Positions 2,226-40,271 of a stretch of 40,271 bases of DNA are shown here, one piece after another. A model generated the notes under the pieces. The model did no database searches. It worked only from the letters and a program-made list of their open reading frames with translations, and was not told the origin of the DNA. The position numbers were made by a program, and so were the translations under genes. Source of the DNA: a virus; the IMG/VR virus record IMGVR_UViG_3300024308_000040, positions 1 to 40,271 of that record. The stretch is one strand, 5' to 3'. Numbering within the stretch: position 1 is the first letter of the stretch; each line of letters begins with the position of its first letter.

Positions 2226-2386
2226 TGAGCTGACTCCTTCTTGCAATTCCGTCTGCTGGTGGCCCGTCCATAGACACTGGCTGACCAGTTGAATGTTTTT
2301 TCACTCGGTTGGATGAATGACTGGTCGCGCCCGCGAACCGCCATCCTCAGGTTCATGGCATTCACTGATGCCTCTGCTTTGCTCAT
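2222..2386 (-). CDS. Small 54-residue coupled protein between Dam and DGQHR genes
   Basis: This short frame starts MSKAEASVNAMNLRM and ends CKKESAQ. It begins with an ATGA overlap on the methyltransferase stop at 2383 and ends with an ATGA overlap on the DGQHR start at 2225, filling the gap exactly. GAGGTGGC lies a few bases before the start. It is basic, with no membrane segment. The double coupling is the main evidence that it is real. No family is recognised. Confidence 0.7.
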   Translation of the reverse strand: MSKAEASVNAMNLRMAVRGRDQSFIQPSEKTFNWSASVYGRATSRRNCKKESAQ

Positions 2387-3642
2387 GCCGCCACCTCTTC
2401 AACCAGCACAGCGCTGCGCGCAATCAGCTCTGCCTCTTTGAGACTTAGTTTCTGGTCATCAACATTCGCCAGCAGCGCTGTGACTGCGGTTTGCCGCTGC
2501 TCATCAGACATTGGGGTATCGGTCTCCGCTTGGGCTATAACCATGCTGCAGCGCCGGATCCGCTCTTTGGTTTCATCGGACATGGTTGTGAACTCATCCA
2601 TCAGCTGCTCATCGCAAATGGAGCAGGCAACAGCGACTTGGCGTGAGGTGTACTGGTCCCGAACACCGTAGAGGATGGTCAGCACGACAACGAAATGAGG
2701 CCATTGACCGTCATCAAGGCTGAGTGGGCCATCGTTCTGGTACTGCCAGTACCAATCGGCAAGAGGCATCACCGAGGCCGGTTCTGTGTCATTGCCGGCT
2801 GCATGACTGGCATCCAGCATGTCGAGCTGGACGGAAGAACCGTTGGTTGGCGTGTCATCCTGAGGTTCCGGCTCTTGGTCAACATTCAGTGACAGATCCA
2901 GAACTGGCGAGTCTTCAAGGCGGTTATCCACTGATTCGGTGGGTGTGGTTGTGTCTTGGGTGTGGACAGCGCCCCGCAGCTTGCTTACCAGCTGGGCTGC
3001 GCGGTCATCAATCATGGCCAGGATAATCTCGCCGGTGGTGATGAGGTCATCCCGGTTCAGCCGCTCAATAGGGCGGCGCTCCCACTTCCAGTCGCGGTCA
3101 AAGATGACGACAGCAGAGGCGAACCCGCTGGTTGACGGCTTGTCTTTCACCGGATCCGCAGGCGTGTACCAGTCGGGGGCTTCAAACCCGATGCGGCCTG
3201 AGATGAATTGAATGCAGTCGGCATCTTCTGGCCACCAGCCGTCAGAAGTAGCGGCTTTAATCAGCAGCATGATCTTGGCGCCCTGGTCTCGTTGTATCCG
3301 GCAGTAGTCAAGGATCGACTCCATGCCGGTGATGGCGTTGCCATCTTCATCGGATTCCGGTCGAGAGTAGGGCGGGTTAGCAAAACAGGCACCGCCTTGG
3401 CGGCGAGAGTCACCAGCCCAGTCTTGGAGCAGAGCGTTATCTGCAGCGGTGTAGAAGCAGCCCACCAGCGCATTGCTCATGTCGGCGAACAGGTCGAGTA
3501 CCACAGGCCCGATCTTCGGTGCGAAGTGATGGAACAGGCCCCAGGCCAGAGGCTTCGGTGTTTGCCACTGATCGCCGATTTCCTTCAACTTGTGACTGGG
3601 TCTGCCCTGCAGTTCGAGCAGGCGCTGTGCGTATTGGTTCAT
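2383..3642 (-). CDS. dam: Phage DNA N6-adenine methyltransferase (Dam family)
   Basis: This 419-residue protein has an N-terminal phage Dam-type methyltransferase domain: DQWQTP at residues 24-29, the AdoMet-site DLFAD..NA at 50-58 and the catalytic FANPPYS at 87-93 (NPPY class). It would methylate adenine in phage DNA, probably protecting it from host restriction or tuning replication. The C-terminal half (about 230-419) is an extension not needed for catalysis. It has an acidic, Pro/Thr-rich linker and then a helical domain with CSICDE near residue 343, so this protein is about twice the usual domain length. Start and stop both overlap neighbours as ATGA. Confidence 0.92.
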   Translation of the reverse strand: MNQYAQRLLELQGRPSHKLKEIGDQWQTPKPLAWGLFHHFAPKIGPVVLDLFADMSNALVGCFYTAADNALLQDWAGDSRRQGGACFANPPYSRPESDEDGNAITGMESILDYCRIQRDQGAKIMLLIKAATSDGWWPEDADCIQFISGRIGFEAPDWYTPADPVKDKPSTSGFASAVVIFDRDWKWERRPIERLNRDDLITTGEIILAMIDDRAAQLVSKLRGAVHTQDTTTPTESVDNRLEDSPVLDLSLNVDQEPEPQDDTPTNGSSVQLDMLDASHAAGNDTEPASVMPLADWYWQYQNDGPLSLDDGQWPHFVVVLTILYGVRDQYTSRQVAVACSICDEQLMDEFTTMSDETKERIRRCSMVIAQAETDTPMSDEQRQTAVTALLANVDDQKLSLKEAELIARSAVLVEEVAA

Positions 3643-31000: not shown

Positions 31001-32406
31001 AGGCCCAGGCCAAAACTCTGGAACAACTCACGGCCACCCTGCAAACGGTCAATGCGGAACTCTCCGCGCAGATCCTCAATGAGCAAACAACCCGGACAAC
31101 AGCTGTTGAGTCGCTGGCCCAGCAACTGTCCACGCTGGATGCAGCGTACAAGCAAGCCGATCAGCAAATGTCTGCGTCTATCGATTCAGAATCGACGGCT
31201 CGGGCGAACGCTGATGGGGCGCTGTCCTCTCGCATCGATACGGCGCAAGCCAAAGCCGATAGTGCAACGGCAGCGGTTCAATCAGAATCGACGGCTCGGG
31301 CGAATGCCGATGGTGCGTTGTCCTCTCGCATCGATACAGCACAGGCCAAGGCGGATAGTGCGGCGGCAGCTGTGCAGTCAGAGTCCACTGCTCGGGCGAA
31401 TGCTGATGGTGCATTGTCCTCTCGCATCGATACAGCACAGGCCAAGGCGGATAGTGCGGCGGCAGCGGTGCAGTCAGAGTCCACTGCTCGGGCGAATGCT
31501 GATGGTGCGCTGTCTTCTCGCATCGATACGGCACAAGCTAAAGCCGATGGTGCATCAGTTGCAGTGCAGACGGTCAGCCAAGCGCAGGCCTCAACGGCTG
31601 GGGAGTTGGCCGCGCTGTGGGCAACCAAGGCGCAGATCAACGGCCAGGGAGGCGGTTTCGGGTTATCAGTGACCATGGCTACTGATGGCTCTGTGATGAC
31701 GTCATTCCTGATCGACGCTGATGTGTTTGCTGTGTTGTCCCGTGCCACTGGGGGAGCCAGCACCATCCATCCGTTCATCGTCAAAAATGGCATCGTTTAT
31801 ATCAACAAGGCGGTACTGGATAGCGCGGATATCAATAGCCTGGTGGCGAACTATATCACTGTCACCGAGCTGGTCGGTTTGAATATCAAGGGCTCGACAA
31901 TGTCCGGGACCAACATTATCGGGGGTTCTCTAAATATCGGTGCCGGTAAGGCCATCATCAACAGCGCAGGCAAGGCGACGCTGCAGGATGCAGACGTCAC
32001 CGGCAAGATAACGGCAACGTCAGGCTCCATGAAAAATCTGACTATCGAAGAAAGCTGCACTATTTTGGGAACGATCTACGCGAAAAATATTGTTGGGGAC
32101 ATCGTGACGGTTATTCCACTTGAACATGGGGTATCCAATGTCATTGCGGCGGTTGATATTGATCGGACTGCGTATTTTGATGGAACTGTGTTTTCGTCAG
32201 AGGGAACGACAAGTGCCTCTATTTATGTGAATGGGGCGCTAGTGAATACTGTTACTTGTGACATTCCATCAGGATGGAAGCCACGACTTAAATCAATTTC
32301 GTTCTATTACCAAATACCTAAAAACACTCAAGTCACATTTGCTGTGAATAAAGCAATAGAGAGGCAAGGCGACATTTCAGCAAAAGTCACTATTTACAAA
32401 AAGTAA
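28000..32406 (+). CDS. Tail tip attachment / host specificity protein J-like
   Basis: The 1468-residue protein is the central tip protein that contacts the host. GGAGGGCAGT sets the start at 28000. Residues 1-50 are a membrane-active Gly/Ala-rich segment. Then come the J-type core (QTSGVLFFAEEQ... RGAKIYDPRD) and fibronectin-like domains at about 460-640. A long coiled-coil region at about 660-1200 ends in four 32-residue repeats (1063-1190). After that a beta-rich tip begins GFGLSVTMATDGSVMTSFLI, a DUF1983-type segment. The last 120 residues have poorer GC and are probably the receptor-binding part. Confidence 0.93.
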   Translation: MPPVIIGAVIAMGAAYAATIGFISMTAALVIGALATAAGSLLTKVPSFSDYASQAEQKQVLRSSKASMTRIYGRTQTSGVLFFAEEQAGEQENGEWVHLAIAVAAHELDAVESVLLGDAEIGTYGEYASWELHNNRATCDPFLLENCASWKDDMVGVGIAWLRVSLKFDATKFPSGIPNIKATVRGAKIYDPRDQLMKWSSNAALVILDYYRTALGVPDSDLDWDQFKAAANICDEQVLTAAGTYEARYSVSGKFELTEAPAKILEALHDACAGAPTFTGGKHGILVGAYYGPALDEIHDHQLAGDVKIVPETAMRDRTNTITGTFVDAEQNYSETDYPSVSVAEWVEEDGGEVASDLNQRFVTSSYQAQRLANIKLRRLRIGRTLTLPMNYSGFAYRPGAYIRLYIPALGISGHEFRVNKFEFSPKNGITLTVREEPAEVWADAVGQVMVVPPLTNLPTGGPAAPDALSYATEVIGDAVQGVLSWRNAGSQIAYNQVVVSRDGEPVLTIQVPGESCRLTGLASGLYLAQVTAVAVNGGHSASAGISFTIAVPALPQSVTVTPSNWSLELRPVYAGGQSFGTLCEWWWSTVDVPLAEVEAKATRLGLAAYLVHSGLQPDTQYHYWLRSVNAYGKSALMAVTGKTSFDAASVIAVLDNQIGGAQLREELRTEIAKIADLTTGSESLQASLNQVQISLSALDAREQQVNNLLEHAQTQLGDNYLNVSLMTENLRQQVNKFNLDFQDFRDAVFSVDPQTGQITMDAVNAVRSELGASISTVSQHLDAVEAVVKTCVTRAELSADFERLTLVEQKIDGIQGTLTQTASKSEVTEVSDTVSQVQQTLDATNSALTQKAAQSQVDSQGQRLTSAEEQIRANTSATIATAEHIEQVKAQLEHADATISSSIVTLQQSIATESQASALRFSQMEAAITGQNGAISELQQVITGDGSTLASKFENLTASADQVAEAALSAALASAKADIEQRKAAGSIRREQSAMAGEQEAQAKTLEQLTATLQTVNAELSAQILNEQTTRTTAVESLAQQLSTLDAAYKQADQQMSASIDSESTARANADGALSSRIDTAQAKADSATAAVQSESTARANADGALSSRIDTAQAKADSAAAAVQSESTARANADGALSSRIDTAQAKADSAAAAVQSESTARANADGALSSRIDTAQAKADGASVAVQTVSQAQASTAGELAALWATKAQINGQGGGFGLSVTMATDGSVMTSFLIDADVFAVLSRATGGASTIHPFIVKNGIVYINKAVLDSADINSLVANYITVTELVGLNIKGSTMSGTNIIGGSLNIGAGKAIINSAGKATLQDADVTGKITATSGSMKNLTIEESCTILGTIYAKNIVGDIVTVIPLEHGVSNVIAAVDIDRTAYFDGTVFSSEGTTSASIYVNGALVNTVTCDIPSGWKPRLKSISFYYQIPKNTQVTFAVNKAIERQGDISAKVTIYKK
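31186..31569 (+). repeat. Four 96-bp tandem repeats in the J-like gene
   Basis: Units begin at 31186, 31282, 31378 and 31474. Each codes for a 32-residue helix block starting SESTARANADGALSSRIDTA. Units two and three are nearly identical in DNA, so copying was recent. Copy number can change without frame loss and would lengthen the tip fibre. Confidence 0.95.
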
Positions 32407-35042: not shown

Positions 35043-36257
35043 TTACGCCGTTCGCTCGAACGGAACCACATTCCCCCCGGCAGCAAAGGCCGTCAATCTA
35101 ATCAGCCATGCCTCGTAGGCCTGGCGCTGCTCATCCAAATAATCATGTTTATCGTAAACCTCCCACACTCCGCCCAGCTTATGCCCGAGCATTTTTTCAG
35201 CGATGTGAGGTTGTGTCAGTGTGGAGAAGTTGGTTCTTGCCGTTCTTCGCAGGTCATGCATTGACCATGGCTGCATGTCGAATCGCTTGATTAATCGCGG
35301 CGGCAGCCTGGTTGGCGCTTGTTCCGTCATGACACCGCCAGTGGGCGTGTTGAATACGAACTCGCCAGAGCTTAATGCCATGGCCTCCTGCAATAGATCG
35401 ATGGCCAACTGAATTAATGGGCGCCGGATAGGGCGCTTCAGGTTCTTCGTGAGATCAGCTGGAACTGTCCAGATGCCAGCCTCAAAATCAAAATGCTCTG
35501 GTCTGGCCAAGCGCAACTCTACAGTTCTGCAGCCAAACAACATCAGCAGCAGGATCAGTAACTGGTTTTTCCTACTGATTTGGCTTTCGTGCAGTCGCCC
35601 CCAGATGACAGCCAATTCGCTGGTGGATAGCACTCGATCCCCCTGCGAGCGCAGCACCCCGAGGTCGCGCAGGGTGAGTGTGTAGATAGGGTTGTTTGTA
35701 ATAGTCTGCCTGTTCTGCCCGAAAGCCAGCGCCTGTTTTGAGTCGGCCAAGAGCTTGTCTGCAATCCCCATAAGCCCATCATCCACCAAGCTATCGAAGA
35801 TCTTGAGCCAGTGCCGGCGCTCAGTCTGTTCAGCGGGCAGATCACCGATGGCAGGAAACACATGCCGCTCGAACCGTTTGATTATGGGTTCGACGCGCTT
35901 GCGGCGTTTGCTCAGATATCTGTCGAACCATTCCCTGATGACCTGTTCATTCGTCACAGCCCCGAGCTTAGCGCCAAACTCCAGGCGCCGAACTGTAAGC
36001 GGATCATCCCCCCGGGACAGCACGGCCTTCCAGCGTAACATCTCATCCTTTGCCACTTTAATGCTGGTGGCAGGGTATGAACCCAGATCCATCTTGTGCT
36101 GTTTGCCACCCCAGCTATAGCGCATCTGAAAAATAACTTTCCCTGCCGGTGTGATGCGCACCCCAAGCCCGCTCCGGTCGGTAACTTCAGTGCGCGACTC
36201 TCGCGGCTTACCGAGTTGGGCATCGAGCCACTTGGCGGTGACGGTTATGGATGACAT
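35043..36257 (-). CDS. int: Tyrosine integrase (P4/DUF4102 type)
   Basis: The 404-residue recombinase has an N-terminal arm-binding domain (GLGVRITPAGKVIFQMRYSW). The catalytic part has GCRTVELRLA (Arg I), MHDLRRTART (His-x-x-Arg) and WEVYDKHDYLDE with the nucleophile Tyr near residue 372. GAGG lies eight bases before the ATG at 36257; an extended frame from 36332 runs over a repeat that looks like an arm site. It integrates and, with Xis, excises the phage at attP next to it. Confidence 0.95.
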   Translation of the reverse strand: MSSITVTAKWLDAQLGKPRESRTEVTDRSGLGVRITPAGKVIFQMRYSWGGKQHKMDLGSYPATSIKVAKDEMLRWKAVLSRGDDPLTVRRLEFGAKLGAVTNEQVIREWFDRYLSKRRKRVEPIIKRFERHVFPAIGDLPAEQTERRHWLKIFDSLVDDGLMGIADKLLADSKQALAFGQNRQTITNNPIYTLTLRDLGVLRSQGDRVLSTSELAVIWGRLHESQISRKNQLLILLLMLFGCRTVELRLARPEHFDFEAGIWTVPADLTKNLKRPIRRPLIQLAIDLLQEAMALSSGEFVFNTPTGGVMTEQAPTRLPPRLIKRFDMQPWSMHDLRRTARTNFSTLTQPHIAEKMLGHKLGGVWEVYDKHDYLDEQRQAYEAWLIRLTAFAAGGNVVPFERTA

Positions 36258-36273
36258 GGGGAAAACCTCTATC

Positions 36274-36300
36274 TCTGTGGCTAGCCTGTGGCTAATTGGC
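36274..36300. repeat. Arm-type integrase site, P side (27-bp direct repeat copy 1)
   Basis: Identical to 36551-36577. Each copy contains two tandem TGTGGCTA units. The copies flank the tRNA-like core in the same direction at distances of about 140 and 75 bases, the layout of arm sites for tyrosine integrases. Confidence 0.75.
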
Positions 36301-36390
36301 AGCTGCTGGAGCTTTCGCCAGCCTTCGCTCATCTTCTGAACTAACGGTACACGATCAGGAAAAAGATCAGTATTAAAAAGGCGTTAGGGG

Positions 36391-36475
36391 TTGAAGGCTT
36401 CCGCAATCCGCGTTAATCTGCGCCTCGCCAAACAAGCGGGTGTAGTTCAATGGTAGAATCCGCACTTCTGCAAGT
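36391..36475 (+). other. attP: attP core: tRNA-Gly 5' half with tRNA-style promoter
   Basis: Bases 36436-36467 match the 5' half of bacterial tRNA-Gly (acceptor GCGGGTG, D-arm GTTCAATGGTAGAAT, then the start of the anticodon stem). Similarity ends in the anticodon loop, at a short inverted repeat ACTT-CTGC-AAGT (36464-36475). Upstream are TTGAAG (36391-36396), 17 bases, TAATCT (36414-36419) and the discriminator GCGCCTC, as in stringent tRNA promoters. Integration would give the host gene a phage-borne 5' half and promoter. tRNA identity is from memory; the anticodon is not preserved. Confidence 0.65.
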
Positions 36476-36550
36476 CAAATCATCTGCAACACATTGAAAA
36501 TAAACATATAAACCAATCAGCAAAAACCCTAAAAAACTCTAATTTTCGAT

Positions 36551-36577
36551 TCTGTGGCTAGCCTGTGGCTAATTGGC
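36551..36577. repeat. Arm-type integrase site, P' side (27-bp direct repeat copy 2)
   Basis: Exact second copy of 36274-36300, with the same pair of TGTGGCTA units. It lies on the other side of the attP core, about 75 bases from it. Confidence 0.75.
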
Positions 36578-36633
36578 GACTGCTTAAGTATGCGCTCATG
36601 CTCCGCGATCAGCGTAACCGCCAGATCACAGGC

Positions 36634-36660
36634 GAAAAAAAACCGGCTTTCGCCGGTCGG
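36634..36660 (-). terminator. Terminator of the left operon
   Basis: The stem CCGGC/GCCGG with a TTTC/GAAA loop is followed on the minus strand by a run of eight T (plus-strand A run 36635-36642). It lies right after the stop of the Xis-like gene and would end the long leftward transcript before attP. Confidence 0.85.
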
Positions 36661-36662
36661 TT

Positions 36663-36959
36663 TTACTGTCTCTCACTCTGTTGCTTCACCGCACCGATGT
36701 GCTCCATTGGCAATTCAATAGGCGCTCGTTCCAGGCTCTTGAACCATTCGATAATCTGCTCGGCAGAATAGAGGCTGGGTTTTCCGCGCCCGCTGATCAC
36801 AGGTTTCACCGGGAAAATTGCGGGCTTCCCATCCTTACCTGGTTTGGACCACTCGAGCAATGTTCGGTCTGAGACAGCAGCCAAGCGGCAGACTGTCTTT
36901 TTAGGGATCAGACCAACTCTTGGTATTTCCAGTGTGACGATTCGAGTTGTTGTTCCCAT
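36663..36959 (-). CDS. Excisionase-like MerR/AlpA-type DNA-binding protein
   Basis: GAGG lies just before the ATG at 36959. The 98-residue product has KKTVCRLAAVSDRTLLEWSK (winged HTH start) and GKPSLYSAEQIIEWFKSLER, the plan of AlpA/MerR-like excisionases. It sits at the end of the left operon beside attP and int, where Xis is expected. It could bend attP DNA and turn integration into excision. A longer frame upstream overlaps ssb and is not needed. Confidence 0.7.
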   Translation of the reverse strand: MGTTTRIVTLEIPRVGLIPKKTVCRLAAVSDRTLLEWSKPGKDGKPAIFPVKPVISGRGKPSLYSAEQIIEWFKSLERAPIELPMEHIGAVKQQSERQ

Positions 36960-40077: not shown

Positions 40078-40271
40078 TCAGTCAAAAACGTAGCTGTGCC
40101 AGAAGTCAGGCTTGCCCAGTACGAGGCTTGAGTCAGGAGCTGATCCAAGTTTCTCTATCTGCTCGATGGCGTATTCAGCCCGGGCAAGTGATGAAGCAGC
40201 CAAGCTCTTCTGATTGCGCTTGCGCATCTTGAATGCGCTCCAGGCCATTTCTTTCGTTTGATGGCACTTGC
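40078..40271 (-). CDS. Hypothetical early protein, C-terminal part (continues at 1-305)
   Basis: This end codes for the last residues (…SAPDSSLVLGKPDFWHSYVFD) of the 123-residue protein begun at 305. The stop is at 40080-40078. Bases 40145-40271 repeat positions 1-127, so part of the gene is present twice in this linear map. Confidence 0.75.
   Translation of the reverse strand, partial: KCHQTKEMAWSAFKMRKRNQKSLAASSLARAEYAIEQIEKLGSAPDSSLVLGKPDFWHSYVFD
40145..40271. repeat. Terminal direct repeat (right copy)
   Basis: Exact copy of bases 1-127, closing the circle. It should be removed once when making a circular map. Confidence 0.95.

Follow-up and report, generated by a model that had tools for sequence, protein, structure and literature searches.

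Elements that use the 5' part of a tRNA gene for integration are known but rare (PMC4383910, PMC8371274). In the Islander collection, 5' tDNA fragments are counted in 159 islands and 3' fragments in 3760 (PMC4383910), and according to a review the use of the 5' half is seldom met in bacteria (PMC8371274). The same review describes the pTN3-like integrases of archaea, which use the 5' half of a tRNA gene and where the rebuilt tRNA is expressed from the integrase promoter. The 5' ends of protein-coding genes can serve as target as well: SXT/R391 elements use that of prfC (PMC4344509), and in dusA islands the incoming element substitutes for the 5' end of dusA and provides putative promoters (PMC4482086). 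In tRNA-dependent lysogeny, finally, the phage brings a whole tRNA (PMC10865867).

Here we analyze positions 36274-36577 of a virus record of 40,271 bp (the whole stretch is referred to as the window). With a probability of roughly 0.8 we consider this region to be the attP of a temperate phage whose insertion target is the 5' part of a tRNA-Gly gene of the host, probably the gene of the CCC isoacceptor. The locus is of value as a clean sequence example of the rare 5' mode of tRNA use, since a complete phage is available in which attP, arm sites, the front end of a tRNA gene and a promoter-like sequence are found together.

Genome context and integrase

The first 127 bases of the record are repeated exactly at its end (positions 1-127 = 40145-40271), so the record represents a complete, unintegrated circular genome of approximately 40,144 bp with its attP intact. 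A reading of the region as attL or attR instead of attP is ruled out by this complete free genome. The terminase is related to the SfV/ST64B group, and the phage also encodes a J-like tail protein, a CI-type repressor and a CII-like activator. No host was pointed to by the closest phages according to terminase. Tail protein J contains a tandem repeat of about 28 aa (ESTARANADGALSSRIDTAQAKADSA...) within its coiled-coil part (31100-31560), and the N-terminal 230 aa of the protein at 2383-3642 (minus strand) match PHROGs of both phosphoadenosine phosphosulfate reductase and DNA methyltransferase, possibly reflecting a fusion or a mislabelled family.

The integrase gene (404 aa; 35043-36257, minus strand) starts with an ATG at 36257, with an AGAGG Shine-Dalgarno-like sequence just upstream. 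Pfam assigns the domains Arm-DNA-bind_3, Phage_int_M and Phage_integrase to its arm-binding, central and catalytic parts, and the comparison with a PHROG integrase yields an E-value of 6e-52. Residues R244, H334, R337, H359 and Y368 are invariant among the relatives; together with the domains, this R-H-R-H-Y set places the protein among the arm-binding (lambda-type) tyrosine integrases.

Upstream of the integrase gene, positions 36258-36662 form a gap without a convincing gene, which holds the arm sites, the promoter-like sequence and the tRNA fragment. At its far end a terminator-like hairpin with a T run (36641-36658, minus strand) would close the neighbouring leftward operon, the number of such hairpins being no higher than in shuffled sequences. 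Adjoining attP is a gene for a small protein of 98 aa (36663-36959, minus strand). It gives a weak match to a PHROG of DNA-binding proteins (E-value 6e-4) and none in a Pfam search; its place and size make it a candidate excisionase.

The tRNA-Gly fragment and the core

The certain part of the attP core is GCGGGTGTAGTTCAATGGTAGAA (36436-36458, plus strand), which equals exactly nt 1-23 (acceptor strand and D-arm) of tRNA-Gly(CCC/TCC) genes from many Pseudomonadota genomes. An exact tRNA match of 23 nt adjoining an integrase is not a matter of chance. The phage stretch has a match in 328 of 398 Pseudomonadota genomes, and in the 30 loci read from these (tRNA-Gly genes) the match usually ends at nt 23. 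Matches in other phages are largely annotated tRNA-Gly genes, and those in plasmids are, where read, ordinary tRNA-Gly genes (Paracoccus, Burkholderia). A search of the phage for tRNA genes returned neither a tRNA gene nor a tRNA-Gly 3' half. The attP thus contains tRNA 5' sequence and no 3' part, the arrangement expected for rebuilding from the 5' side, and the statement of an earlier note on this DNA that the phage has a 5' portion of a tRNA instead of the 3' end is confirmed.

According to that note the 5' half extends up to the anticodon loop. This is exact for nt 1-23, while the following bases, TCCGCACTTC (36459-36468, plus strand), fit only a tRNA with a CGCAC anticodon stem. For a tRNA-Gly(CCC) with such a stem TCCGCACTTC is the sequence expected, with TTC of the loop up to anticodon base 34 and CTTC standing at its tRNA-Gly(CCC) position. 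Ordinary hosts read CGGCAGCTTC here, and all six bases at 36459-36464 differ. The phage version, allowing for up to 3 mismatches, was absent from approximately 1,180 genome draws (some genomes were drawn more than once). Comparison with host-type tRNA-Gly genes therefore gives a divided outcome, identity over nt 1-23 but anticodon-stem bases that match none of those seen, and the ten bases are a probable continuation of the tRNA 5' half or else a phage-specific half of the core. This leaves two options, a host from a lineage that was not sampled, or a match that goes no further than about nt 23, with the crossover in the D-arm. For a typical host we infer a crossover no later than nt 23; given a CGCAC stem in the host, it could lie as far along as the anticodon loop.

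Joined in silico, phage nt 1-23 and the 3' part of a typical host gene form tRNA-Gly(ccc), whereas no tRNA gene results from the other junction or from the phage alone. ARAGORN calls a tRNA even if the phage sequence up to CTTC is joined to a typical host, though with a shifted anticodon (tcc), and its calls cannot decide on the crossover. Exact 33-, 27- and 20-mers had no match in IMG/VR, and searches with the integrase in IMG/VR and GTDB genomes returned distant relatives or none (one search ran without a positive control). Across these IMG/VR, GTDB and genome-draw searches no lysogen, attB or host genome was found, which leaves no junction to read.

Arm-type sites

The core lies between two direct repeats of TCTGTGGCTAGCCTGTGGCTAATTGGC, one on the int side within the int leader (36274-36300, plus strand) and one on the far side (36551-36577, plus strand), with a start-to-start distance of 277 bp. 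These repeats, noted earlier as 27-bp direct repeats, are identical at 27 of 27 positions; the symmetrical flanking reported along with them is approximate, as the core lies about 20-25 bp to the right of their midpoint (36425/36426). Each arm consists of two TGTGGCTA units with a spacing of 11 bp, and in the whole window the octamer is confined to these four places. Repeated arm sites are thus found on both sides of the core, as in a lambda-type attP.

The same layout is seen in an unrelated phage (L297, 3037-3264), where two TGTGGCTA-N3-TGTGGCTA pairs 209 bp apart flank an apparent tRNA 3'-end core beside an integrase-like ORF. Judged from sequence, this supports the reading of the 27-bp repeats as arm-type integrase sites. 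Apparently, similar arm words can occur with unrelated integrases, as the comparison of L297 with the analysed phage illustrates. A search of IMG/VR with the arm motif gave 68 matches, none of them with a related integrase. The position of one arm pair in the int leader is such that Int could affect its own expression, by analogy to KplE1 (PMC2951348).

Predicted promoter

Promoter elements ahead of the tRNA, another claim made earlier, can be read on the plus strand: a predicted -35 hexamer TTGAAG (36391-36396; 4/6 of the consensus), a spacer of 17 nt, a predicted -10 hexamer TAATCT (36414-36419; 3/6) that ends 16 nt before tRNA nt 1 and, directly after it, a GCGCCTC discriminator of the stringent/growth-rate type (36420-36426). 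We scored every -35/-10 combination with the -10 ending 9-25 nt before nt 1, and TTGAAG-N17-TAATCT is the best at a position appropriate for a tRNA. In E. coli glyU and three other CCC-type genes the distance from -10 to nt 1 is 16-17 nt, against 16 in the phage.

Of 32 upstream regions of real tRNA-Gly genes, some of which lack a promoter of their own, 23 score lower. Random phage positions attain the score in 2.1% of cases, local shuffles in 3.9%. Sequence and spacing would fit a working promoter, with P at about 0.02-0.04 for the hexamers, and as hexamers the site is moderate. A generic promoter scan with a threshold of 9/12 does not list the site. The pattern TTGA-N19-TA-N3-TGCGCC, which was chosen after looking, has one exact occurrence in the window. 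Overall, the predicted promoter looks like an ordinary growth-rate-controlled tRNA promoter that would replace the severed one.

Proposed fate of the host tRNA gene

Recombination between the core and the host tRNA gene would move the host promoter and the 5' fragment to the far end of the prophage, and at the int end the phage promoter and phage 5' part would become joined to the host 3' part. As the phage has no 3' half, a tRNA can arise only at this int-end junction, so that the working tRNA would be read from phage DNA without the host promoter. This agrees with the earlier proposal of a rebuilt tRNA cut off from its host promoter, and it also fits the habit of the nearest integrases to act on 5' ends. 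The rebuilt tRNA would be read from the phage promoter, beside int and divergent from it. The phage promoter would then stand in for the severed host promoter, and tRNA expression in the lysogen would stay normal.

The conclusion drawn earlier, that tRNA-Gly supply in the lysogen comes under phage control, is overstated: the predicted promoter looks like one of an ordinary growth-rate type, and hosts have other tRNA-Gly genes. With a stringent-type promoter the replacement would behave like the original. An active promoter would mean that the phage has made a copy of the growth-rate control to which a host tRNA is subject. The locus makes a direct test possible, i.e. of a lysogen tRNA gene that runs on a phage promoter and of a change in its output by Int or stress.

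Alternative explanations

One alternative concerns the place of the crossover and is a sub-case of the attP explanation: strand exchange could occur in the anticodon stem-loop of a host with the CGCAC stem, in which case the phage carries a true 5' half up to base 34. We put this slightly below even odds. CTTC is found at the CCC-type position, and the core contains a weak dyad with a 7-bp spacer; the Islander paper describes anticodon-loop crossovers as common for tRNA integrases (PMC4383910). The absence of such a stem from the genome draws argues against it, and the best core dyad, AATGGTAGAA-TCCGCAC-TTCTGCAAGT, is no better than the number of placements tried predicts. A different view leaves attP as proposed but takes the promoter to be weak or inert, in which case the lysogen would lose or lower this tRNA and survive because the same codon is read by another one, tRNA-Gly(UCC), which can read GGG by wobble. 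This seems unlikely to us. The hexamers are only moderately above chance (2-4%) and the generic scan omits the site, but position and spacing copy those of real tRNA genes and GCGCCTC follows exactly after the -10. In addition, putative promoters are found in the dusA islands, another case of 5'-end replacement (PMC4482086).

A more far-reaching proposal starts from the location of the predicted tRNA promoter within the recombination complex, with an arm site on one side of it and the core on the other. In a lysogen, Int binding might silence tRNA-Gly(CCC) when excision is being prepared, and in the free phage the promoter might produce an RNA of the tRNA-Gly 5' half, which would amount to a phage switch on a host tRNA. 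We regard such a switch as improbable. Least credible is a tRNA fragment left over from an earlier recombination event, with the real attachment site elsewhere: the fragment is intact, and its place in the non-coding gap immediately upstream of int, between identical arm pairs, is just where attP is expected. An attP that rebuilds a tRNA-Gly gene from its 5' side is our preferred explanation.

Relatives of the integrase

The nearest integrases are 39-42% identical to that of the phage. In these relatives the 5' end of prfC (Ayreon, cdtI, L131, L203) or of lepA (Gifsy-1, Klebsiella phage 5, L210 and others) adjoins int, as confirmed with blastn and tblastn against E. coli prfC and lepA. Some of the relative contigs are integrated copies, in which the fragment may be the displaced 5' end of the host. 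Ayreon, available as a complete phage record, and cdtI, available as a circular one, have the prfC fragment in their own DNA. In Ayreon the fragment opens with a different start, MTSLLAAEVAKRRTFAIISHP, which indicates that the new N-terminus is supplied by the phage. The attP analysed here lacks a prfC or lepA 5' end and has the tRNA-Gly 5' part instead. The fragment has the same direction as int in the prfC/lepA relatives, whereas it is opposite to int in the analysed phage.

In a tree the phage integrase is placed beside the prfC group, on a long branch and with weak support (82/64). Most simply read, these integrases form a group that replaces 5' ends, one member of which uses a tRNA. What looks new is this link of the tRNA 5' mode to integrases that habitually replace the 5' ends of host genes.

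The prfC and lepA fragments, from genes of translation-factor GTPases, are seen in relatives L195, L198, L131, L203, L210, L234, L256, L260, L270 and others, and upstream of int they end just before the P-loop. Moraxella phage Mcat19 (L200, ~1790-1850) has a similar-looking stretch, TTISIIGHTN. Together with the prfC/lepA relatives this suggests an integrase group aimed at the 5' ends of P-loop GTPase genes.

Comparison with known systems

In tRNA-dependent lysogeny (PMC10865867) integration into a tRNA gene is compensated by phage DNA, as proposed here. This system was nevertheless rejected as an explanation, because the phage has no complete tRNA of the same isotype. The Islander islands with a 5' fragment (PMC4383910) resemble our proposal in that the element supplies the tRNA 5' part and displaces a 5' fragment; whereas these islands are known here from their counts, the analysed phage shows the intact attP of a complete phage and a promoter-like sequence as well. 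For the pTN3-like integrases (PMC8371274, PMC5495485) attB is the 5' half of a tRNA gene and the rebuilt tRNA is severed from its original promoter, again as proposed here. These archaeal integrases are suicidal, however, as their own gene contains att and is disrupted, whereas int of the analysed phage is whole and lies outside the core, with separate arm sites.

The dusA-specific integrases (PMC4482086) share the replacement of the target 5' end and the putative promoter supplied by the element. Their target is protein-coding rather than a tRNA, and the likeness is one of integration mode. Closest of all (39-42%) are the integrases of Ayreon, cdtI and Gifsy-1, where, like in the analysed phage, the 5' end of the target is carried by the phage. 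The prfC/lepA integrases differ in their protein-gene target, in a fragment directed towards int and in another arm motif, whereas the analysed phage carries the front end of a tRNA that points away from int.
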